This document shows positions 16,204-23,478 of a stretch of DNA of 64,000 nt, piece by piece. How positions within the stretch are numbered: position 1 is the first letter of the stretch; every line of letters starts with the position of its first letter. The notes beneath the pieces are model-generated. The model was not told the DNA's origin, ran no database searches, and saw nothing but the letters and a program-made list of their open reading frames with translations. The DNA comes from Massilia sp. CF038 (lineage in GTDB: Bacteria > Pseudomonadota > Gammaproteobacteria > Burkholderiales > Burkholderiaceae_D): NCBI RefSeq assembly GCF_900129765.1, contig NZ_FQWU01000002.1, positions 1,054,001 to 1,118,000 of the forward strand, read 5' to 3'. A program made the position numbers and the translations under genes.

Positions 16204-17325
16204 ATGCCCCAGAACATGAATGAAGCTGCCGCGCGCCTGCGCGACGCGATCCGCGCCGCCACGGCCGGTTTGATCGACCGTGAGCACCTGGCCGAATTAT
16301 TGATTCTGGCAGCAGTCGCACAGGAACACTTGCTGGTCGTCGGCCCGCCGGGCACGGCCAAAAGCGCGGTGGTGCGACGCGTGGCGCAAAGCTTGGGCGG
16401 CAATTATTTCGAGTACCTGCTGGGGCGCTTCACCGAACCATCCGAGCTGTTCGGACCGGTCAACCTGAGCAAGCTGCGCGAGGGCCTGGTCGAAACCGAC
16501 GTCAGCGGCATGCTGCCGGAAGCTGACATCGCCTTCCTCGATGAAGTCTTCCTCGGCTCCACGGCCATTCTCAACACCCTGCTTGGTGTGCTCAATGAGC
16601 GCCAGTTCCGGCGCGGCCATACGCGTATTCGCTGCCCGCTGCGCGTGTGCGTCGCCGCAGCCAATGGCTTGCCGGAAGACGAAGGCCTGGCCGCTTTTGC
16701 AGACCGCTTCCTGCTGCACGTATTTGTGGACGCGGTCCCGGACAACAAACTGGAAGACTTGCTGGCCGGTGGCTGGGCCGTTGGCCAGGCGCCGCTGACC
16801 GCGCGCGCCGATCTGGCCAGCCTGGACATGCTGAACCGCGCGGTGCCCGACGTGGACATGAGCCTGGTCCGCGCCGACCTGGCCCAGGCCATCCGCCTGC
16901 TGCGCCAGGCCAATGTGCAGCTGTCGGACCGGCGCATTGTCAAGGCCCAGCATTTGATTGCTGCGGCCACCGTGCTGGCGGGGCGCACCACGGCCAGCCG
17001 GGCCGATTTGTGGCCGCTGGTGTACGCCATCCCCACCAGCACGGGGCAGCAGAATGCCCGCGAAGCGCTGCGCGACCTGCTGGCCGAAGCGCGCCATCCG
17101 CTGCTGCACGCCGTTGTCGAGGAAGCCGTCCAGCAGCCGCTGGCACGAGTGGCACGACTGACCGAAACCGCAGCGCGCCTTTTGGCGCAAGCGATGTCGC
17201 CCGAGACTCAAGCCCAGGCAGAAGCCTTGCTGCGCGAAATCGATGCCAATTTCGACAACGCCACCATGCCGCCGGAACTGGCGGTACCACGCGCACGCCT
17301 GGTGCTCATGGCGAGCGGTGACTGA
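16204..17325 (+). CDS. MoxR-family AAA+ ATPase (MVBP ternary system)
   Basis: 373 residues. Walker A GPPGTAKS near residue 48, Walker B AFLDEVFLG near 110, preceded by the MoxR/RavA signature EYLLGRFTEPSELFGPV and followed by NTLLGVLNERQFRRG. Sensor and arginine-finger region is consistent with an active ATPase. MoxR proteins are chaperone-like ATPases that work with vWA-domain partners, and the downstream genes supply such a partner plus beta-propellers. An alternative start (MNEAAARL) lies four codons in. The stop overlaps the next ATG as TGATG. Confidence 0.9.
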   Translation: MPQNMNEAAARLRDAIRAATAGLIDREHLAELLILAAVAQEHLLVVGPPGTAKSAVVRRVAQSLGGNYFEYLLGRFTEPSELFGPVNLSKLREGLVETDVSGMLPEADIAFLDEVFLGSTAILNTLLGVLNERQFRRGHTRIRCPLRVCVAAANGLPEDEGLAAFADRFLLHVFVDAVPDNKLEDLLAGGWAVGQAPLTARADLASLDMLNRAVPDVDMSLVRADLAQAIRLLRQANVQLSDRRIVKAQHLIAAATVLAGRTTASRADLWPLVYAIPTSTGQQNAREALRDLLAEARHPLLHAVVEEAVQQPLARVARLTETAARLLAQAMSPETQAQAEALLREIDANFDNATMPPELAVPRARLVLMASGD

Positions 17326-17741
17326 TGCAGGTACTTTTGTGGAGCGAGCGTAGCGAAGCCCTGCCGCCATCGGGCATGGTGACGGCGGGCGCAGTGACGC
17401 GCCGCCTGCTCGCACGCTTGCGCAGCGTCGATGGGCAGGCGCTGTCACGCCTGTCGGTGGCTGCCACGCGCGACTTGCTGGTGCTGATAGGCCCGGCCGA
17501 CGAGCTGCCCTGGGTGGACGGCGCGCGCTACTGCGCACCGGACCCGGACGTACACAGCTTGTGGGTACCAACCAATATGCGCCCAGTGCTGCCGCCCGAC
17601 TTGATTCGCCGCAGCGCAGCCGCGCGGGCAGGCGATGGCGTCTTGCTGCTATGGCCCTCGCCAGAACAATTCGTGCCGCTGGAAAGCGCGCGCAGTCTGA
17701 CGCCGGAAGTGCTCGACTGGCTCAAGGAGCAGTGTGCATGA
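17325..17741 (+). CDS. small MVBP-associated (bpX-type) protein
   Basis: 138 residues, no signal peptide or transmembrane helix. Notable core: LPWVDGARYCAPDPD followed by LWVPTNMRPVLPPDLI. A motif of this kind recurs in the small accessory proteins of MoxR-vWA-beta-propeller systems (bpX families). I recall it as closest to bpX5 but am not certain of the number. Its one-base overlap upstream and ATGA overlap downstream place it firmly in the four-gene operon. No enzymatic motif was recognised, so it is probably a structural adaptor or substrate-binding partner. Confidence 0.72.
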   Translation: MQVLLWSERSEALPPSGMVTAGAVTRRLLARLRSVDGQALSRLSVAATRDLLVLIGPADELPWVDGARYCAPDPDVHSLWVPTNMRPVLPPDLIRRSAAARAGDGVLLLWPSPEQFVPLESARSLTPEVLDWLKEQCA

Positions 17742-19573
17742 AGCAGCTGCCTGCCCCGTTGCAGCCCTGGCATCCATGGCTGTCGTTATTCCCGCCTGAT
17801 CTGATCGAGCCTCTGGGTGCGCTGCTTCTGCGCCTGCATCCCCAGATCGGCCCTTTGCGCAGCGCGCCGGCCCGCGCCGACGCCCTGCCAGAAGGCGTGG
17901 GCAGCATCGTCCAGCGTGGACCTTACGAACGCTTGTTGATTACCGAATGGGCGTATGCAGACGCCGAACCGGATGAGTTCATTCGCCGCGCTGCCAGCGG
18001 TGAATTGATGTTTGCCGGTCCGGAGCCGGCGGCGCGCCAGCGCTCGCGCCGCTGCCTGGCCTTGTTCGACAGTGGTCCGGCGCAGCTGGGCGAGCCACGC
18101 TTGCTGCACCTGGTCCTGTTCATCCTGCTGGCGCGCCGCGCCGAGGAAGCCGGCGCCTTGTTCGAGTGGGGTGTGCTGCAGGTGCCTGGCAAGCTGCATG
18201 GCAGCAGTGACCGCGAAGCTATCAAGGCACTGCTGAACGCACGCACACTGTTTGCCGCACAAGCCCAGCACATCGAGGCCTGGAACGACGTCATTGATAG
18301 CGCCGCTGACGATGCGTGGGTGATCGGTGCGCATGGAAGCGAGCGGCCGCCCGGGGTACGCGGGCATATCGGCATTGCTCGTCACTGGCTGGAAGAGCGT
18401 CTCGACGTGCGGTTGACGATGCATCAGGCGGTGCGCCAGTTCATGCTCGATCTGCCACCGCCACCGCTGGCAACGCGGTTGCTGCGCAGTCCCTTTGAAA
18501 CCCTGGCCAGCAACGCGCAGGTGCGTCAGCCAGGGGGCCGTCCATCCCTGCTGCTGGCGCCGCGCTTTGCCGTGGCCGCATCCATGCTGGCAGTGCCGCA
18601 GCTCGATGGCGGCATCATCACGTATCCGGTCCCGAATTCGCTCAGGGCCAAGCCGGGGACGCCGCGGCGTCAGGCGGCACCGGCCACGGGCGCGATCCTG
18701 GGCGGTGGTCTGTTCGGCAAAGGGATGGGTAGTTTGATCGGTGAAGGAGACAATCTGCGCTTCAAGGGCTTTCCCATTGAAGGGTTTTCATCCAAGTACG
18801 CCGTCACCCCACGTCCGTCGAATGAGGAATTTAATCACCCGCCGCAGAGCGGCCGCTGGCTGCCAGTGTTTTTCCTGAAGTGTGAGCTTCCCGTCTCGCG
18901 TAACGCGCCGCGTATCACGCGCAGCAATGTGATCGCGCTCGACAGGAGCTTGCGTCTGGTCTGCTGGAGCAGGGAGTCTTCGACCCAGAGCAATACTGCT
19001 ACCCAATCGCCGATCAAGTTCAGCACCATCGCCAGTTGCGTCATCGGCGCTGAACAAACCTCAGACAGGATTCTGTTCGGCGTCGCCGGCAATGGAGAGA
19101 CAGAACTGAAGATTTATAAACCGGGAACAGGCACCAGCAATCTGCTGACACTGCCGCGCAGCGCAAGCAGTATCCTGTTTGGCGACCTGCGCCACTGGCC
19201 GCGATCGGGCGAGCATGGAGCGCTTGCCTTGAAGGTGGAGCCGAACGAGTGGTGGACCGGAACCAGCAAGGAGATGACCATGCTCAAGGTCGCCGAAGGT
19301 GCACGCGTGATCGGCGTGGCCAGGAGCGAAAAGCATGGCTGCGTGGGCCTGGTGGTACTGGCGCCCGGCAGGCGCATCATCGAAATGTACTCCGGCTCAG
19401 GCGTGCGCGTGCTGGTGCGCTCGTCCGGCAATATCGCGCAGGTGAGCGTGTGTCCGTTTACAGGCAACATCGCCTGGATAGGCGCCAGCAGTCTGCGCGT
19501 GTACGTGCAGGCAATCGACCAGGACAAGCCGTATCTGGAAGTACTCAATGCCGAAGGCGACAGCGATGAATAA
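17738..19573 (+). CDS. degenerate vWA / beta-propeller protein of the MVBP system
   Basis: 611 residues from ATG 17738, with AAGGAG 8 bases upstream and ATGA overlap with the previous gene. Residues 100-180 read like a vWA core, RRCLALFDSGPAQLGEPRL, where the usual metal-binding DxSxS becomes DSGPAQ. FILLARRAEEAG and FEWGVLQ follow as helix and strand. Residues about 390-600 contain repeated strand motifs ('HGALALKVEP', 'HGCVGLVVLAPGRR', 'GNIAWIG') as expected for beta-propeller blades. By analogy it is the client-binding partner of the MoxR ATPase. Domain assignment is by eye. Confidence 0.72.
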   Translation: MKQLPAPLQPWHPWLSLFPPDLIEPLGALLLRLHPQIGPLRSAPARADALPEGVGSIVQRGPYERLLITEWAYADAEPDEFIRRAASGELMFAGPEPAARQRSRRCLALFDSGPAQLGEPRLLHLVLFILLARRAEEAGALFEWGVLQVPGKLHGSSDREAIKALLNARTLFAAQAQHIEAWNDVIDSAADDAWVIGAHGSERPPGVRGHIGIARHWLEERLDVRLTMHQAVRQFMLDLPPPPLATRLLRSPFETLASNAQVRQPGGRPSLLLAPRFAVAASMLAVPQLDGGIITYPVPNSLRAKPGTPRRQAAPATGAILGGGLFGKGMGSLIGEGDNLRFKGFPIEGFSSKYAVTPRPSNEEFNHPPQSGRWLPVFFLKCELPVSRNAPRITRSNVIALDRSLRLVCWSRESSTQSNTATQSPIKFSTIASCVIGAEQTSDRILFGVAGNGETELKIYKPGTGTSNLLTLPRSASSILFGDLRHWPRSGEHGALALKVEPNEWWTGTSKEMTMLKVAEGARVIGVARSEKHGCVGLVVLAPGRRIIEMYSGSGVRVLVRSSGNIAQVSVCPFTGNIAWIGASSLRVYVQAIDQDKPYLEVLNAEGDSDE

Positions 19574-22301
19574 TATCCGGCGTCCGCTGTTCGACGGCAT
19601 GCGCGAAATCCACGCGATCTGGTTCGATGTCCCACTTATCGGCGAGCCAGCAGCACGGCGCCGCATCCTGGCCCACTGGCAGCGTGGCGCGCGACTGCAT
19701 CGTGCTGCCGAGGGCTATCTTCTGACGCTGGCACAGTCACGATTTGCCGATTGCGACGGCCTTGATGGCCTGGCGCTGTGCCGGCTGGGAACCGGCTTGT
19801 CGAGCGCCCCGCTGGCCGTTGACGAACTGGCCGCCATTCCACCCGGCGGCTGTCTGCTGGTGCGCGGTGCGCACGCCGTTGCTTGCTCACTGACCGCGGC
19901 CGAGCTGGTGGACCCGGCGCTGTGGATCGATACCAGCGCAATCGCGATTCGCGAACCAATGCGCATTCCCAGGTCGAAGGTCAAGGTCAGCATGGCCGAC
20001 CCGGAAGCCGAAAAATCCCTGCGCGAGATACTCGACAACGCGATTTTGCCGCCGAGCGAAGCGCGCGAACAATTCCTGCGCGAGCGCGCGCGCGCCGCCA
20101 AAGAAGGGACGAAGGGTGGCACCGGCGTCGCAGGCAAGGCTGTTGGCATGGCCCTTATCGCCGCAGCCGCCGGAGCGGGCTTGCTGGCGACCATGCTTAT
20201 CGGGCTGCTTGGCGCGTCGAAAACCGGCGGCGGCGGCAGCGGCAGCAGCGGCGGCGGCAGCGGCGGCAAGGCGAGCGCGGAAGCGACTGGCAGGCGCGCC
20301 CCGGACCCGATATGGAAACAAAAACTGTTCGCGGCCGCCGCCAAGCTGGCGGTCATGAGCAAGATATCCGACGTCATCGGCTGGCGCCAGGCGGCCTATC
20401 TGCGCAAAATGGTTGACATGTTCGAGCAGGGTGACATTGCCGAGGCGCTGCGCCACGCCATCCCGCTGGGCGGCGATGACGACAACATGCGCCAGCTGCT
20501 TGGCAGCTTCGGGCCGCGTTCCAGTCTGGAGATCAATGCGCCCGGCGGCACGTCAGCCACTGTCAACGTCGACATGGCGATGCAGCAGTATCTGCGCGAG
20601 AAATACCGTCATCTGTTCGCGCGCCTGGACCGCGACGGCCGCATCGATGAAGCGACCTTCGTGCTGGCGGAGCTATTGAAGTCGCCCATGGAAGCAGTCG
20701 ACTACCTCGAAAAAAACAAACGCTTCAAACAGGCAGCGCAACTGGCGGAGAAACTGCAATTGTCCGCCGAGGTCTCGCTGCGTCTGTGGTTCCTTGCGGG
20801 CGACATCGAACGCGCCGTCCGTATTGCGCGCCTGACCGGGTCATTTGCCGATGCCGTGCGCAAGCTCGAACTCAGTCAGCACAGCGGCGCGGCAGAGCTG
20901 CGCATGGCGTGGGCAAGCTACCTGGCCGCGCGCGGCGACCTGGCCGAAGCGGCCGACGCGCTGTGGCCGCTGGAGGCGCAGCACGAGCAGGCGCTGGCAT
21001 GGCTGCTGCAGGCCGAGCGCAATGGGGGCATGCCCGGTGCGCGCGCCCTGGCACGCAAACTCGCCCTGATGCCCGAAGCGCTGGCGGACAGCGTGGGCAG
21101 CATTCGCGCCATCCTCGACGCGCCAGAGGACAGCGGCGCGCGCTTGCGCGTGACCTTGTGCACCGAGCTGTGTGAATTGAATAAGCAATCGTCGGCCACC
21201 CGGCGCCTGGCCGCTGAATTGCTGCGCCCTCTGCTTGCCGAGCGCAGCGTCGGCCTCAATCAGCTGGACCGGACGACCTTGAAGCGCCTGATCACCGTTG
21301 CCGATGCAGGGACGCTGCAAAGCGACCTGCCGCCGATCGACTTCAAAGCGCCAGCCACCCCAGTGACGCTGAACAACCAGACCGCGCCGCTGCAGCTGCA
21401 CGGTGGCGACGTCGGCCTGCTGGCAATTTATGATGCGCGCCGGCTCCCGTGTGGTCAGTATCTGCTTGCACTGGGCGAAGGCGGCATGCTGCGTGTGACT
21501 GCCAAAGGCAAGCACGTGGTGCATTTCCCGCTGCCGGCCTTCCAGCTGGTGTTGTCGAAAAACGGCCAGCGTGCACTCGCACTGGCCCGGCGCGGGGACG
21601 TGGTACGGGTCAGCCGCGTGGACCTGGTCACGTGCAAGGTGAGCGACTGGATCACGCATCCAATCGACTTTTGGGCTGGCCAGTATGACGGTGTGGTCTG
21701 GAATGCCGTGATTGACAACCGGGTGGTAGCGATTGATACCACCCAGGACCACTTGGCCCTGGTGTGGCAGATTGCCGACCTGCCCGGCAGAGTCGTCGCC
21801 TTCCATGACACTGGCGCAAGCCAGACGATCCTGATCGGTACCGACAGCGCCCTTGAACAGTGGCGCTACCAGCTTCCGGACCGGCGTCTCATCCAGCGCG
21901 ACAGTTTTTCCCTGCCGGTCGACGGGCAGCTCGCACTCGCGCACCCGGCCTGCAGTACACCGCTGGTGCTGCGCCTTGATCAGAATGACGGCGTCGGGAC
22001 CCTGCACGTGCCGCGCCTGCGTGGCGGTGACCTGGAAATCCAGGTGCCGGTGGCCGCCGAAACCAGCGTGGACACCAAGGCCAGCTGGTTGATGGTGCAG
22101 TCGGTGGACAGTGACGGCCAGTTCCGCTGCATGGTGGTGGACCGCCAGCTCCATGCCGTGGTGGCGCAATTGAATCTGGCGCATGCCGAACATGCGGGGG
22201 TGGCCGCGCACGACGACCATATTCTGCTGTTCGACCGCGCTGGCCGCCTGCTCGACCTGGACACCACAGACTGCAAAGTGCACAGCCTGTCGATCAGTTG
22301 A
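19566..22301 (+). CDS. large membrane-anchored solenoid/beta-propeller protein (bpX6-like)
   Basis: 911 residues from ATG 19566, overlapping the previous gene by 8 bases (ATG 19548 is an alternative start). Order: N-terminal 110-residue module with RPLFDGMREIHAIWFDVP, bpX6-like by recall; charged helical segment; one hydrophobic helix (MALIAAAAGAGLLATMLIGL, about 195-220); a Gly/Ser linker made mostly of G and S; then a helical repeat region (about 300-600) and a C-terminal beta-propeller (about 610-905). It probably anchors the ternary system at the membrane. The low-complexity linker is unusual and would let the two halves move independently. Confidence 0.72.
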   Translation: MNNIRRPLFDGMREIHAIWFDVPLIGEPAARRRILAHWQRGARLHRAAEGYLLTLAQSRFADCDGLDGLALCRLGTGLSSAPLAVDELAAIPPGGCLLVRGAHAVACSLTAAELVDPALWIDTSAIAIREPMRIPRSKVKVSMADPEAEKSLREILDNAILPPSEAREQFLRERARAAKEGTKGGTGVAGKAVGMALIAAAAGAGLLATMLIGLLGASKTGGGGSGSSGGGSGGKASAEATGRRAPDPIWKQKLFAAAAKLAVMSKISDVIGWRQAAYLRKMVDMFEQGDIAEALRHAIPLGGDDDNMRQLLGSFGPRSSLEINAPGGTSATVNVDMAMQQYLREKYRHLFARLDRDGRIDEATFVLAELLKSPMEAVDYLEKNKRFKQAAQLAEKLQLSAEVSLRLWFLAGDIERAVRIARLTGSFADAVRKLELSQHSGAAELRMAWASYLAARGDLAEAADALWPLEAQHEQALAWLLQAERNGGMPGARALARKLALMPEALADSVGSIRAILDAPEDSGARLRVTLCTELCELNKQSSATRRLAAELLRPLLAERSVGLNQLDRTTLKRLITVADAGTLQSDLPPIDFKAPATPVTLNNQTAPLQLHGGDVGLLAIYDARRLPCGQYLLALGEGGMLRVTAKGKHVVHFPLPAFQLVLSKNGQRALALARRGDVVRVSRVDLVTCKVSDWITHPIDFWAGQYDGVVWNAVIDNRVVAIDTTQDHLALVWQIADLPGRVVAFHDTGASQTILIGTDSALEQWRYQLPDRRLIQRDSFSLPVDGQLALAHPACSTPLVLRLDQNDGVGTLHVPRLRGGDLEIQVPVAAETSVDTKASWLMVQSVDSDGQFRCMVVDRQLHAVVAQLNLAHAEHAGVAAHDDHILLFDRAGRLLDLDTTDCKVHSLSIS

Positions 22302-23478
22302 CGGCGCAGGTGGCGACAGCGCCGCGACGGGTGGAGCGTCCTGCCTGTGAAAAGACAGGCGCTGCGTGCCGCGTGTCCGGGCCCGGCTCTTGCGCGGCGG
22401 GTTGCGGGCTGTGATACGCGCCCATCGCGCCACCGTTGTCGGCGCCGCTGGCGATCTCCCAGGCGCAATCGTCCGCCAGCGTCGCGTAGTCGGCACTGCC
22501 ATACCTCATACTGCGAAAGCGCGGCAGTATGCGCTGGCGTTCCTGCCAGGATGCGCCAGCCAGACGTGCTTCGTCCGGCTGGCAATGCGCGCGTGCCGGC
22601 GTTCTTGAACCGGCAGCGAGATAGCAGTACCGGATCAGCCCCTGATCGCGCCGTCCTGCCAGCAAGGCGCCGAGAAAAATTGCGTTCTCGGCCAGAGCCA
22701 GTCGGGCAAGCTGGCTGACACCAACCACCGTGCTGCGCAGGATGGTCGCACATACGCGTGCGGCATCCTGCTGCCGGTCGGCGATGGCCAGTCCGGCCGC
22801 GTGGCCAGCATCGATGATGCTGTCGCAAACCAGCAGCGCGCCGCCCGCGCCATTCAACTGCAGGCCGCCGGTAATGCAGTGATCGAGGCACAGCGCGACG
22901 GCGTTCACGTCCGAGACCAGACTGGGTGCGCTGCCCCAGCGCGCTTCCCCCACGCCTTCGGTCTCCCAACCGGGCACCAGCGTGCAGTGGCGCAGCACAA
23001 CTTGCGCGGGTACGCCGGCACAACTGCCCCGCAGCGCCAGCGCACCGCCGGCGATCAACACACCATCAATGTGCAAGCGTGCGCCTTTGGCGCAGTCGAC
23101 GACAATCCGTTCCCGCTCGCCGCTGTGGTAGTCGAATATGCGCAAGGTGGGCCGGCACATGTCTGCCGCGCGAAGATAGAGTTCATCGTCAGGGTCCAGC
23201 CGGATTGAGGGTGCTTCGTGGTAGGTGGTACTGTCCGCAATTTCAATCACCGCCACGCGCGGTCCATTGCCGGCGCGTTTGTCGGCAGTCCACTGGGCCA
23301 GCGCCTGCGTCACGGTGGCGAACTCCCCTGGGGCGCAGCGTTTTTGTACCCGGTACACGGGCGCACCCGGCAGGGCAAGCGCTGCACGCGAGTAATGCCC
23401 GCCGCCAATGGACGTCGCACGAGCGCCGGCGGCGAATTGCTCATTAGAATTATGCAAATGGCTGGCATGCCGTCCCAT
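22294..23478 (-). CDS. parallel beta-helix protein with a contractile-injection-type C-terminal motif
   Basis: 394 residues, convergent with and overlapping the MVBP operon by 8 bases. The middle (about 95-290) has the short hydrophobic repeats of a right-handed parallel beta-helix (LHIDGVLIAGGALALRGS, VVLRHCTLVPG, ALCLDHCITGG, LLVCDSIIDAG). The tail contains RYCYLAAGSRTPARAHCQP and MRYGSADYATLADDC followed by EIASGADNGGAMGAYH. I recall this tail from large beta-helix proteins encoded beside extracellular contractile injection systems and phage-tail-like clusters. No signal peptide. No such system is in the window, so its role here is unknown. Confidence 0.7.
   Translation of the reverse strand: MGRHASHLHNSNEQFAAGARATSIGGGHYSRAALALPGAPVYRVQKRCAPGEFATVTQALAQWTADKRAGNGPRVAVIEIADSTTYHEAPSIRLDPDDELYLRAADMCRPTLRIFDYHSGERERIVVDCAKGARLHIDGVLIAGGALALRGSCAGVPAQVVLRHCTLVPGWETEGVGEARWGSAPSLVSDVNAVALCLDHCITGGLQLNGAGGALLVCDSIIDAGHAAGLAIADRQQDAARVCATILRSTVVGVSQLARLALAENAIFLGALLAGRRDQGLIRYCYLAAGSRTPARAHCQPDEARLAGASWQERQRILPRFRSMRYGSADYATLADDCAWEIASGADNGGAMGAYHSPQPAAQEPGPDTRHAAPVFSQAGRSTRRGAVATCAVN

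Follow-up and report, generated by a model that had tools for sequence, protein, structure and literature searches.

A bpX5/bpX6-type beta-propeller MoxR-vWA operon of Massilia suggests a V protein in which the head stays constant and the propeller changes fast

An ATPase of the MoxR family usually acts together with a partner protein, as in the pairs NorQ/NorD and RavA/ViaA. Here we analyzed an operon built around such an ATPase in Massilia sp. CF038, located at 16204-22301 of a window of 64,000 nucleotides (contig NZ_FQWU01000002.1, positions 1,054,001 to 1,118,000), and sequence comparisons suggest that one of its products, a propeller protein designated V, consists of a constant head and a fast-changing propeller, a pattern that is new here. 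The closest described relatives are the beta-propeller MoxR-vWA ternary systems of Kaur et al. (2020; PMC7159879). According to the accessible part of that paper, the MoxR proteins of MoxR-vWA systems often bear a GXXXTAKS P-loop, the vWA protein carries a C-terminal propeller and its vWA may lack one or both aspartates, and the third component has an N-terminal region that is variable, plus a membrane segment, TPRs, and a propeller; the name bpX, which comes from Pfam, has no occurrence in that part. The accessible text of PMC9677677 describes RGP_32 of Pseudomonas syringae clade 2b-a, in which clade-unique ravA, bpX5, a 6ND4-like protein, and bpX6 follow one another in this order. In the VMAP ternary systems, as far as the accessible part of PMC10907252 goes, a vWA-CLec protein is diversified by a diversity-generating retroelement, and the lectin on the vWA protein was proposed to be a sensor feeding the MoxR ATPase. 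No experimental study of the bpX5/bpX6 subtype was found in the open-licence literature, a search that did not cover most subscription journals.

In profile comparisons, the Massilia locus proved complete and ordinary for a proteobacterial beta-propeller MoxR-vWA ternary system of the bpX5/bpX6 subtype, a system of the known kind described by Kaur et al. It consists of four plus-strand genes, each overlapping the next, with overlaps of 1, 4, and 8 bases as read from the sequence. The first gene encodes an AAA+ ATPase of 373 amino acids (16204..17325) that matched PF20030 (bpMoxR) with an E value of 3e-90 and 301 bits (cut-off 27). Its stop codon is overlapped by the start of bpX5 (TGATG; 138 amino acids; 17325..17741; PF19921, E 1.1e-47, 161.6 bits), which in turn shares ATGA with the gene for V (611 amino acids; 17738..19573), and the 8-base overlap leads into the gene for the bpX6 protein (911 amino acids from the ATG at 19566; 19566..22301; PF19922, E 3.3e-61, 206.5 bits; cut-offs of 27 for both bpX models). 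V had no Pfam match, and NCBIfam gave only sub-cut-off matches. The bpX5 and bpX6 models exceeded their cut-offs in none of 14 control genomes, whereas the bpMoxR model did so in 12 of the 14 and is not specific alone; it also matched three or four other places in the source genome, the next best at 54.8 bits, far below the operon MoxR. Thus, the bpX models carry the family assignment. The Walker A motif of the MoxR protein, GPPGTAKS (residues 47-54; 16342..16365), is the GXXXTAKS variant by sequence comparison, and its Walker B motif is FLDEVF. GPPGTAKS was present in 77 of 81 MoxR sequences and GPPGTGKS in 4, and T51, A52, K53, and S54 were invariant in a set of 10 sequences. An earlier note made from the DNA alone had proposed four overlapping plus-strand genes, intact Walker motifs in the MoxR protein, a 138-residue bpX-type protein, and a 911-residue membrane protein under the name of a MoxR-vWA-beta-propeller system. 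All of these held: the 138-residue protein is bpX5, the 911-residue protein is a bpX6 protein with one strong hydrophobic segment (residues 197-215), and three of the four proteins match Pfam models named for the system; the HMM search and neighborhood comparison that the note had called for returned bpX profile matches and a conserved gene order.

As in the accessible description by Kaur et al., the locus is a single operon with a GXXXTAKS MoxR, a second protein with a C-terminal propeller, and a third protein with a hydrophobic segment, helical repeats, and a propeller. Unlike that description, V has about seven predicted blades rather than about four, and the operon is of a four-gene bpX5/bpX6 subtype, without a match to bpX0, bpX1, bpX2, or bpX4 in the 11 genomes searched. 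The likeness to RGP_32, as accessible, is in the same four-gene order, and 6nd4 was also a Foldseek match of V, but the genus is different and the genes there lie in a region of genome plasticity. RavA provided the nearest solved structures to the MoxR sequence profile (E about 5e-48); however, the protein scored 154.6 bits against a cut-off of 681 for the RavA equivalog model, and its partners here are V, bpX5, and bpX6 instead of ViaA.

Gene content was compared in 80 named loci, the best 80 of 242 candidates from a MoxR alignment scan, which came from Massilia, Duganella, Janthinobacterium, Rugamonas, Pseudomonas, Lysobacter, Xanthomonas, Variovorax, Chromobacterium, Proteus, Gilliamella, and others. 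Because the loci were picked from MoxR sequences like that of the source copy, distant subtypes are unsampled. The order MoxR-bpX5-V-bpX6 was present in 77 of the 80 loci, the remaining 3 being cut by a contig end; since all uncut loci keep this order, chance association is excluded. One gene of each was found in 73 loci (in one, L117, bpX6 runs off the contig), and the other 7 comprised the 3 cut loci, 2 with broken frames, and 2 with extra V copies. The proposal of a minimal operon therefore had to be dropped, as one gene of each is the usual form. None of the 11 subtype-carrying genomes held bpX0, bpX1, bpX2, or bpX4 (bpX3 was not searched), a weak negative because control genomes gave no match either. 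When the flanks were clustered as open reading frames of at least 100 amino acids, with no scan aimed at defense genes or reverse transcriptases, no family occurred in more than 7 of the 80 loci. In Xanthomonas phaseoli (L115:10966-16061), bpX5, V, and bpX6 are each split over several frames, other Xanthomonas loci being unbroken. The operon of L052, with all four genes on an 8.5-kb contig labelled Candidatus Eremiobacteraeota, groups among Oxalobacteraceae copies, which may reflect a mislabelled bin or a transfer of the operon.

The two parts of V contrasted in the comparison of the source copy with that of its relative G314. The ratio of nonsynonymous to synonymous substitution rates (dN/dS) was 0.128 for MoxR, about equal to that of the neighboring metabolic gene metC (0.126), and 0.344, 0.432, and 0.421 for bpX5, V, and bpX6, respectively. 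Along V, the proportion of synonymous differences (pS) was similar throughout (0.47-0.64, excluding the last block of 10 codons), whereas that of nonsynonymous differences (pN) was 0.08-0.09 at residues 1-151 and 0.29-0.50 beyond, giving pN/pS values of 0.16-0.20 at residues 1-151 and 0.68-0.95 at residues 302-601. The conserved head core (residues 1-150; 17738..18187) also had the lowest mean column entropy in V, and the propeller (residues 258-605; 18509..19552), for which 28 strands in about seven blades are predicted, had values of 2.3-3.2. These entropies and the motif counts below were obtained from 80 V and 74 bpX6 sequences kept above length and score limits, some loci giving several V sequences. 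We further surveyed close pairs (MoxR identity of at least 86% and pS of at most 0.40) among 73 loci that have MoxR, V, and bpX6, a set excluding L056 and L057; the Massilia pair G301/G305 was left out. In 18 of the resulting 19 pairs, which share loci, pN was higher in the propeller than in the head.

Tandem V genes show the same contrast within single operons. Five of the eight operon copies in the genus contain two to five tandem V genes: five in Massilia rubra (one without the head) and two in each of four other members. In M. rubra (L056:11544-19747), the five genes lie between bpX5 and bpX6, and the headless one is the second (389 amino acids). In all 10 head-bearing paralogue pairs within one operon, the heads were more alike than the propellers. 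Five of these pairs had heads 81-92% and propellers 33-37% identical, V3 and V4 of M. rubra had heads 87% and propellers 71% identical, and the four pairs with divergent V1 copies (M. rubra and M. mucilaginosa) had heads 53-55% and propellers 31-39% identical. For the head, the approximately unbiased (AU) test did not reject a clade uniting three M. rubra paralogues, which had been specified once the identities were known (p-AU 0.165); for the propeller, it did (p-AU 0.00043). V5 of M. rubra pairs with its M. mucilaginosa orthologue in both the head and the propeller trees, and residues 1-75 of V4 and V5 had a pS of only 0.02; the grouping in both trees suggests that there was only local conversion at residues 1-75 of V4/V5.

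In two pairs of loci, the replacement lies mainly in the propeller. DNA identity between the Massilia genomes G301 and G305 was mostly 85-98% over the upstream flank and the operon, dropped to 53-67% over most of the propeller of their second V gene (V2), and was again 95% at the start of bpX6. Correspondingly, pS between the two V2 genes was 0.12-0.27 at residues 1-245 and 0.41-0.64 at residues 246-545, a region in which G305 and G315 V2 had a pS of 0.11-0.18. Four-fold sites differed at 20 of 138 positions before and at 39 of 94 positions inside the propeller (Fisher p 6e-6, for a segment picked post hoc from the dip). The jump in synonymous divergence points to recombination with a diverged allele, and since the replaced propeller remains among V2 propellers in the tree, it was probably donated by an allele of the V2 type. 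In the second pair, from Lysobacter (L098/L103), pS was 0.16 for MoxR, 0.13 for the V head, and 0.50 for the propeller (p 5.5e-4, uncorrected). A Xanthomonas control pair had no rise of propeller pS (p 0.13).

The head of V carries the motif DSGPAQ at residues 111-116 (18068..18085), which the earlier note had taken for an altered metal site of this copy. Among 81 V sequences, however, F110, G113, Q116, and R121 were present in all 81, D111 in 79, and P114 in 74; the motif is near-invariant across the family, and an unusual metal site of the source copy was rejected. Of the "degenerate vWA with propeller" proposed at the same time, the propeller stood, backed by an AlphaFold2 model (mean pLDDT, the predicted local distance difference test score, 89.1) and by fold matches, and the vWA was not confirmed by profile comparison. 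When the V head was compared using hhalign with CoxE-type vWA sequences, other vWA sets, and their union, the probability was 0.2-1.2%, as against 97.7% for a vWA-to-vWA control and 0.1% for two unrelated controls (control locus L149, with no open frame, was dropped). The three best of these alignments (two vWA sets and the union, all within that 0.2-1.2%) put D111 on the vWA metal aspartate. The vWA label of V is thus not confirmed here and rests on the published assignment and the D111 register, without a significant match. The Foldseek matches of V, including 6nd4, fall within residues 256-611; as the propeller filled the match list, the fold of the head was barely probed. Searched against solved structures, the V sequence profile yielded a single match at chance level (E 0.5), and a viral fold library gave nothing beyond the propeller for V among the matches listed.

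By Pfam, hydropathy, and an AlphaFold2 model (pLDDT 86.2), the bpX6 protein has an N-terminal bpX6 domain (residues 4-172; 19575..20081; Pfam match), a hydrophobic segment that is a probable membrane span (residues 197-215; 20154..20210; Kyte-Doolittle mean 2.24), a helical repeat region (residues 249-590; 20310..21335; assigned by DSSP on the model), and a second propeller (residues 604-911; 21375..22298). A segment of at least 1.6 on the Kyte-Doolittle scale was found at residues 150-330 in 53 of 74 bpX6 relatives (median 2.19), a loose line that MoxR (1.74) and 29 of 80 V proteins also pass. Residues 1-125, in the bpX6 domain, were moderately conserved (mean entropy 1.7-2.1), and the linker at residues 176-250 was very variable (2.8-3.1) and had the highest pN in many of the 19 close pairs. 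In contrast to the variable N-terminal region in the accessible account of Kaur et al., it is the V propeller, the bpX6 linker, and a stretch of the bpX6 propeller that vary strongly here and not the bpX6 domain.

The operon is patchily distributed. Counting the source genome each time, bpX5 was over its cut-off in 8 of 17 genomes of the genus (one more weak match was without the other genes), in 4 of 300 of the order, and in 4 of 369 of the class (one more weak), and bpX6 was found in 3 of 398 genomes of the phylum. The loci of the weak bpX5 matches in G300 and G670, L029 and L036, hold none of the four genes, and both genomes were counted as negative; the copy of G316 (L035) ends inside V. 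Upstream of the operon lies a metC-like gene (this name, clpA, and clpS were assigned by eye) with a close orthologue in 13 genus relatives, and in all 12 relatives with enough contig it continues into clpA/clpS, although clpA matches were weaker in G304 and clpA is in pieces in G313. The slot between metC-like gene and clpA holds the operon only in the source and G314 and other cargo in the remaining relatives, and four other relatives have the operon on the same contig at a distance of about 113-132 kb. In two relatives the slot contains a phage-tail-sheath-like gene (L038:1207-2913 and L040:1203-2789, both on the minus strand), which matched PF04984 just below its cut-off (E about 1e-6) and, in L040, PF17482 just above. 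In the bpX6 tree, the source copy pairs with that of G314 (support 100); copies from Rugamonas, Duganella, and Janthinobacterium join next, at a support of only 85, and those of M. mucilaginosa and M. aquatica stand apart. The V tree agrees (98). Gain, loss, or movement of the operon between sites would all fit. Downstream, a minus-strand gene for a 394-residue protein, beta-helix-like by eye (22294-23478), shares 8 bases with the end of bpX6 in a tail-to-tail arrangement and had no Pfam, NCBIfam, PADLOC, PHROGs, or solved-structure match. It was rejected as a fifth operon partner, being matched in 2 of 95 compared loci, both of G314; it adjoins the operon in G314 too and is in pieces without the operon in G313.

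For the mechanism, we tentatively favor, at somewhat below an even chance and as the most economical reading, a scheme in which the V propeller recognizes a target, the head couples this to MoxR, and bpX6 is acted on. In its favor are the family matches and the kept gene order, the constrained head beside a variable propeller, the tandem V genes, the two mainly-propeller replacements, the patchy distribution, and the lack of a flanking family in more than 7 of 80 loci. The propeller would select the target, and the conserved head, with its D-x-G-P-x-Q motif and invariant aromatic residues, may dock on a RavA-like MoxR ring. ATP hydrolysis by MoxR would then remodel or recruit the bpX6 protein, which may be the acted-upon or executing partner and is probably membrane-anchored in the source lineage; signaling could be expected to run in this direction, and bpX5 might be a small adaptor. 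The operon might also have a defensive role. It is possible, though rather doubtful, that V is a head-coupled, receptor-like protein with an exchangeable propeller, and that several V proteins in tandem, as in M. rubra, give one ATPase and a single bpX6 partner a small recognition repertoire whose diversity comes from duplication and recombination and not from a retroelement. The proposal for the V propeller parallels the sensor role proposed for the diversified, vWA-linked domain in the accessible part of the VMAP work, but here the diversified part is the propeller, and what is observed is duplication and recombination; no search was aimed at a diversity-generating reverse transcriptase.

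Several observations weigh against a recognition role of this kind. The pN/pS of the source propeller stays at or below 1, so relaxed constraint would fit, and by entropy the V propeller is matched in variability by the bpX6 linker (176-250) and a section of the bpX6 propeller (776-875). The strong contrast between heads and propellers is limited to 5 of 10 paralogue pairs, the sequence does not show a vWA fold of the V head, and 21 of 74 bpX6 relatives lack the hydrophobic segment. As for replacement, G301/G305 has a second, shorter dip to 57% in the bpX6 linker; in L098/L103 the pS of bpX6 is also raised (0.23-0.35) and the low block extends to the end of V; and 17 of the 19 close pairs lack a propeller pS more than 1.5 times that of MoxR, one of the two pairs over this line, L109/L116, being marginal (0.46 vs 0.30). 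PADLOC-DB gave only weak P-loop matches for MoxR (best E 2.9e-4) and none for the other four proteins tested, no phage match to bpX6 was found, and only two plasmid records matched MoxR at E <1e-60, both at <60% identity.

The low pN/pS, the 17 pairs, the RavA structures nearest to the MoxR profile, and the absence of a widely recurring flanking family would also fit a RavA-ViaA-like chaperone with a housekeeping or stress function, in which MoxR and two propeller partners assemble or repair a membrane complex and the propeller varies because, as a scaffold, it is under loose constraint. We consider this somewhat unlikely, because presence is patchy (8/17 in the genus, 4/300 in the order), the MoxR score is far from the RavA equivalog cut-off, and neither tandem V genes whose heads resemble each other more than their propellers do nor mainly-propeller replacement with raised synonymous divergence is expected of a fixed scaffold. 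The tandem V genes and propeller replacements might also be by-products, without functional meaning, of homologous recombination of the ordinary kind together with rapid drift in a fold that tolerates change. Other signs of recombination exist; in L068/L084, for example, pS is 0.07 in the bpX6 propeller and 0.36 in MoxR, which hints that the other propeller was exchanged recently. The head trees without clear concerted evolution and the rarity of swaps in the examined pairs agree with such an origin as well. It nevertheless appears unlikely, given that pS is similar along V between the source and G314, with pN rising only past residue 151, and that pairs from two separate families have a propeller-centered block. 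Quite unlikely, in our view, is that the variable effector is the N-terminal region of the third component, here the bpX6 protein, and that the propellers merely join the two proteins, as published in the accessible part of PMC7159879. While the linker with its hydrophobic segment is among the most variable parts in entropy and often has the highest pN, the bpX6 domain itself (1.7-2.1) is less variable than the V propeller (2.3-3.2), and the clearest replacement block sits in the V propeller.

The source copy itself is ordinary, and the value of this analysis is in the comparative pattern, which makes the sensor hypothesis testable. It singles out the V propeller as the likely recognition module of the bpX5/bpX6 subtype, and the natural paralogue sets, with heads alike and propellers unlike, would make domain-swap experiments direct.

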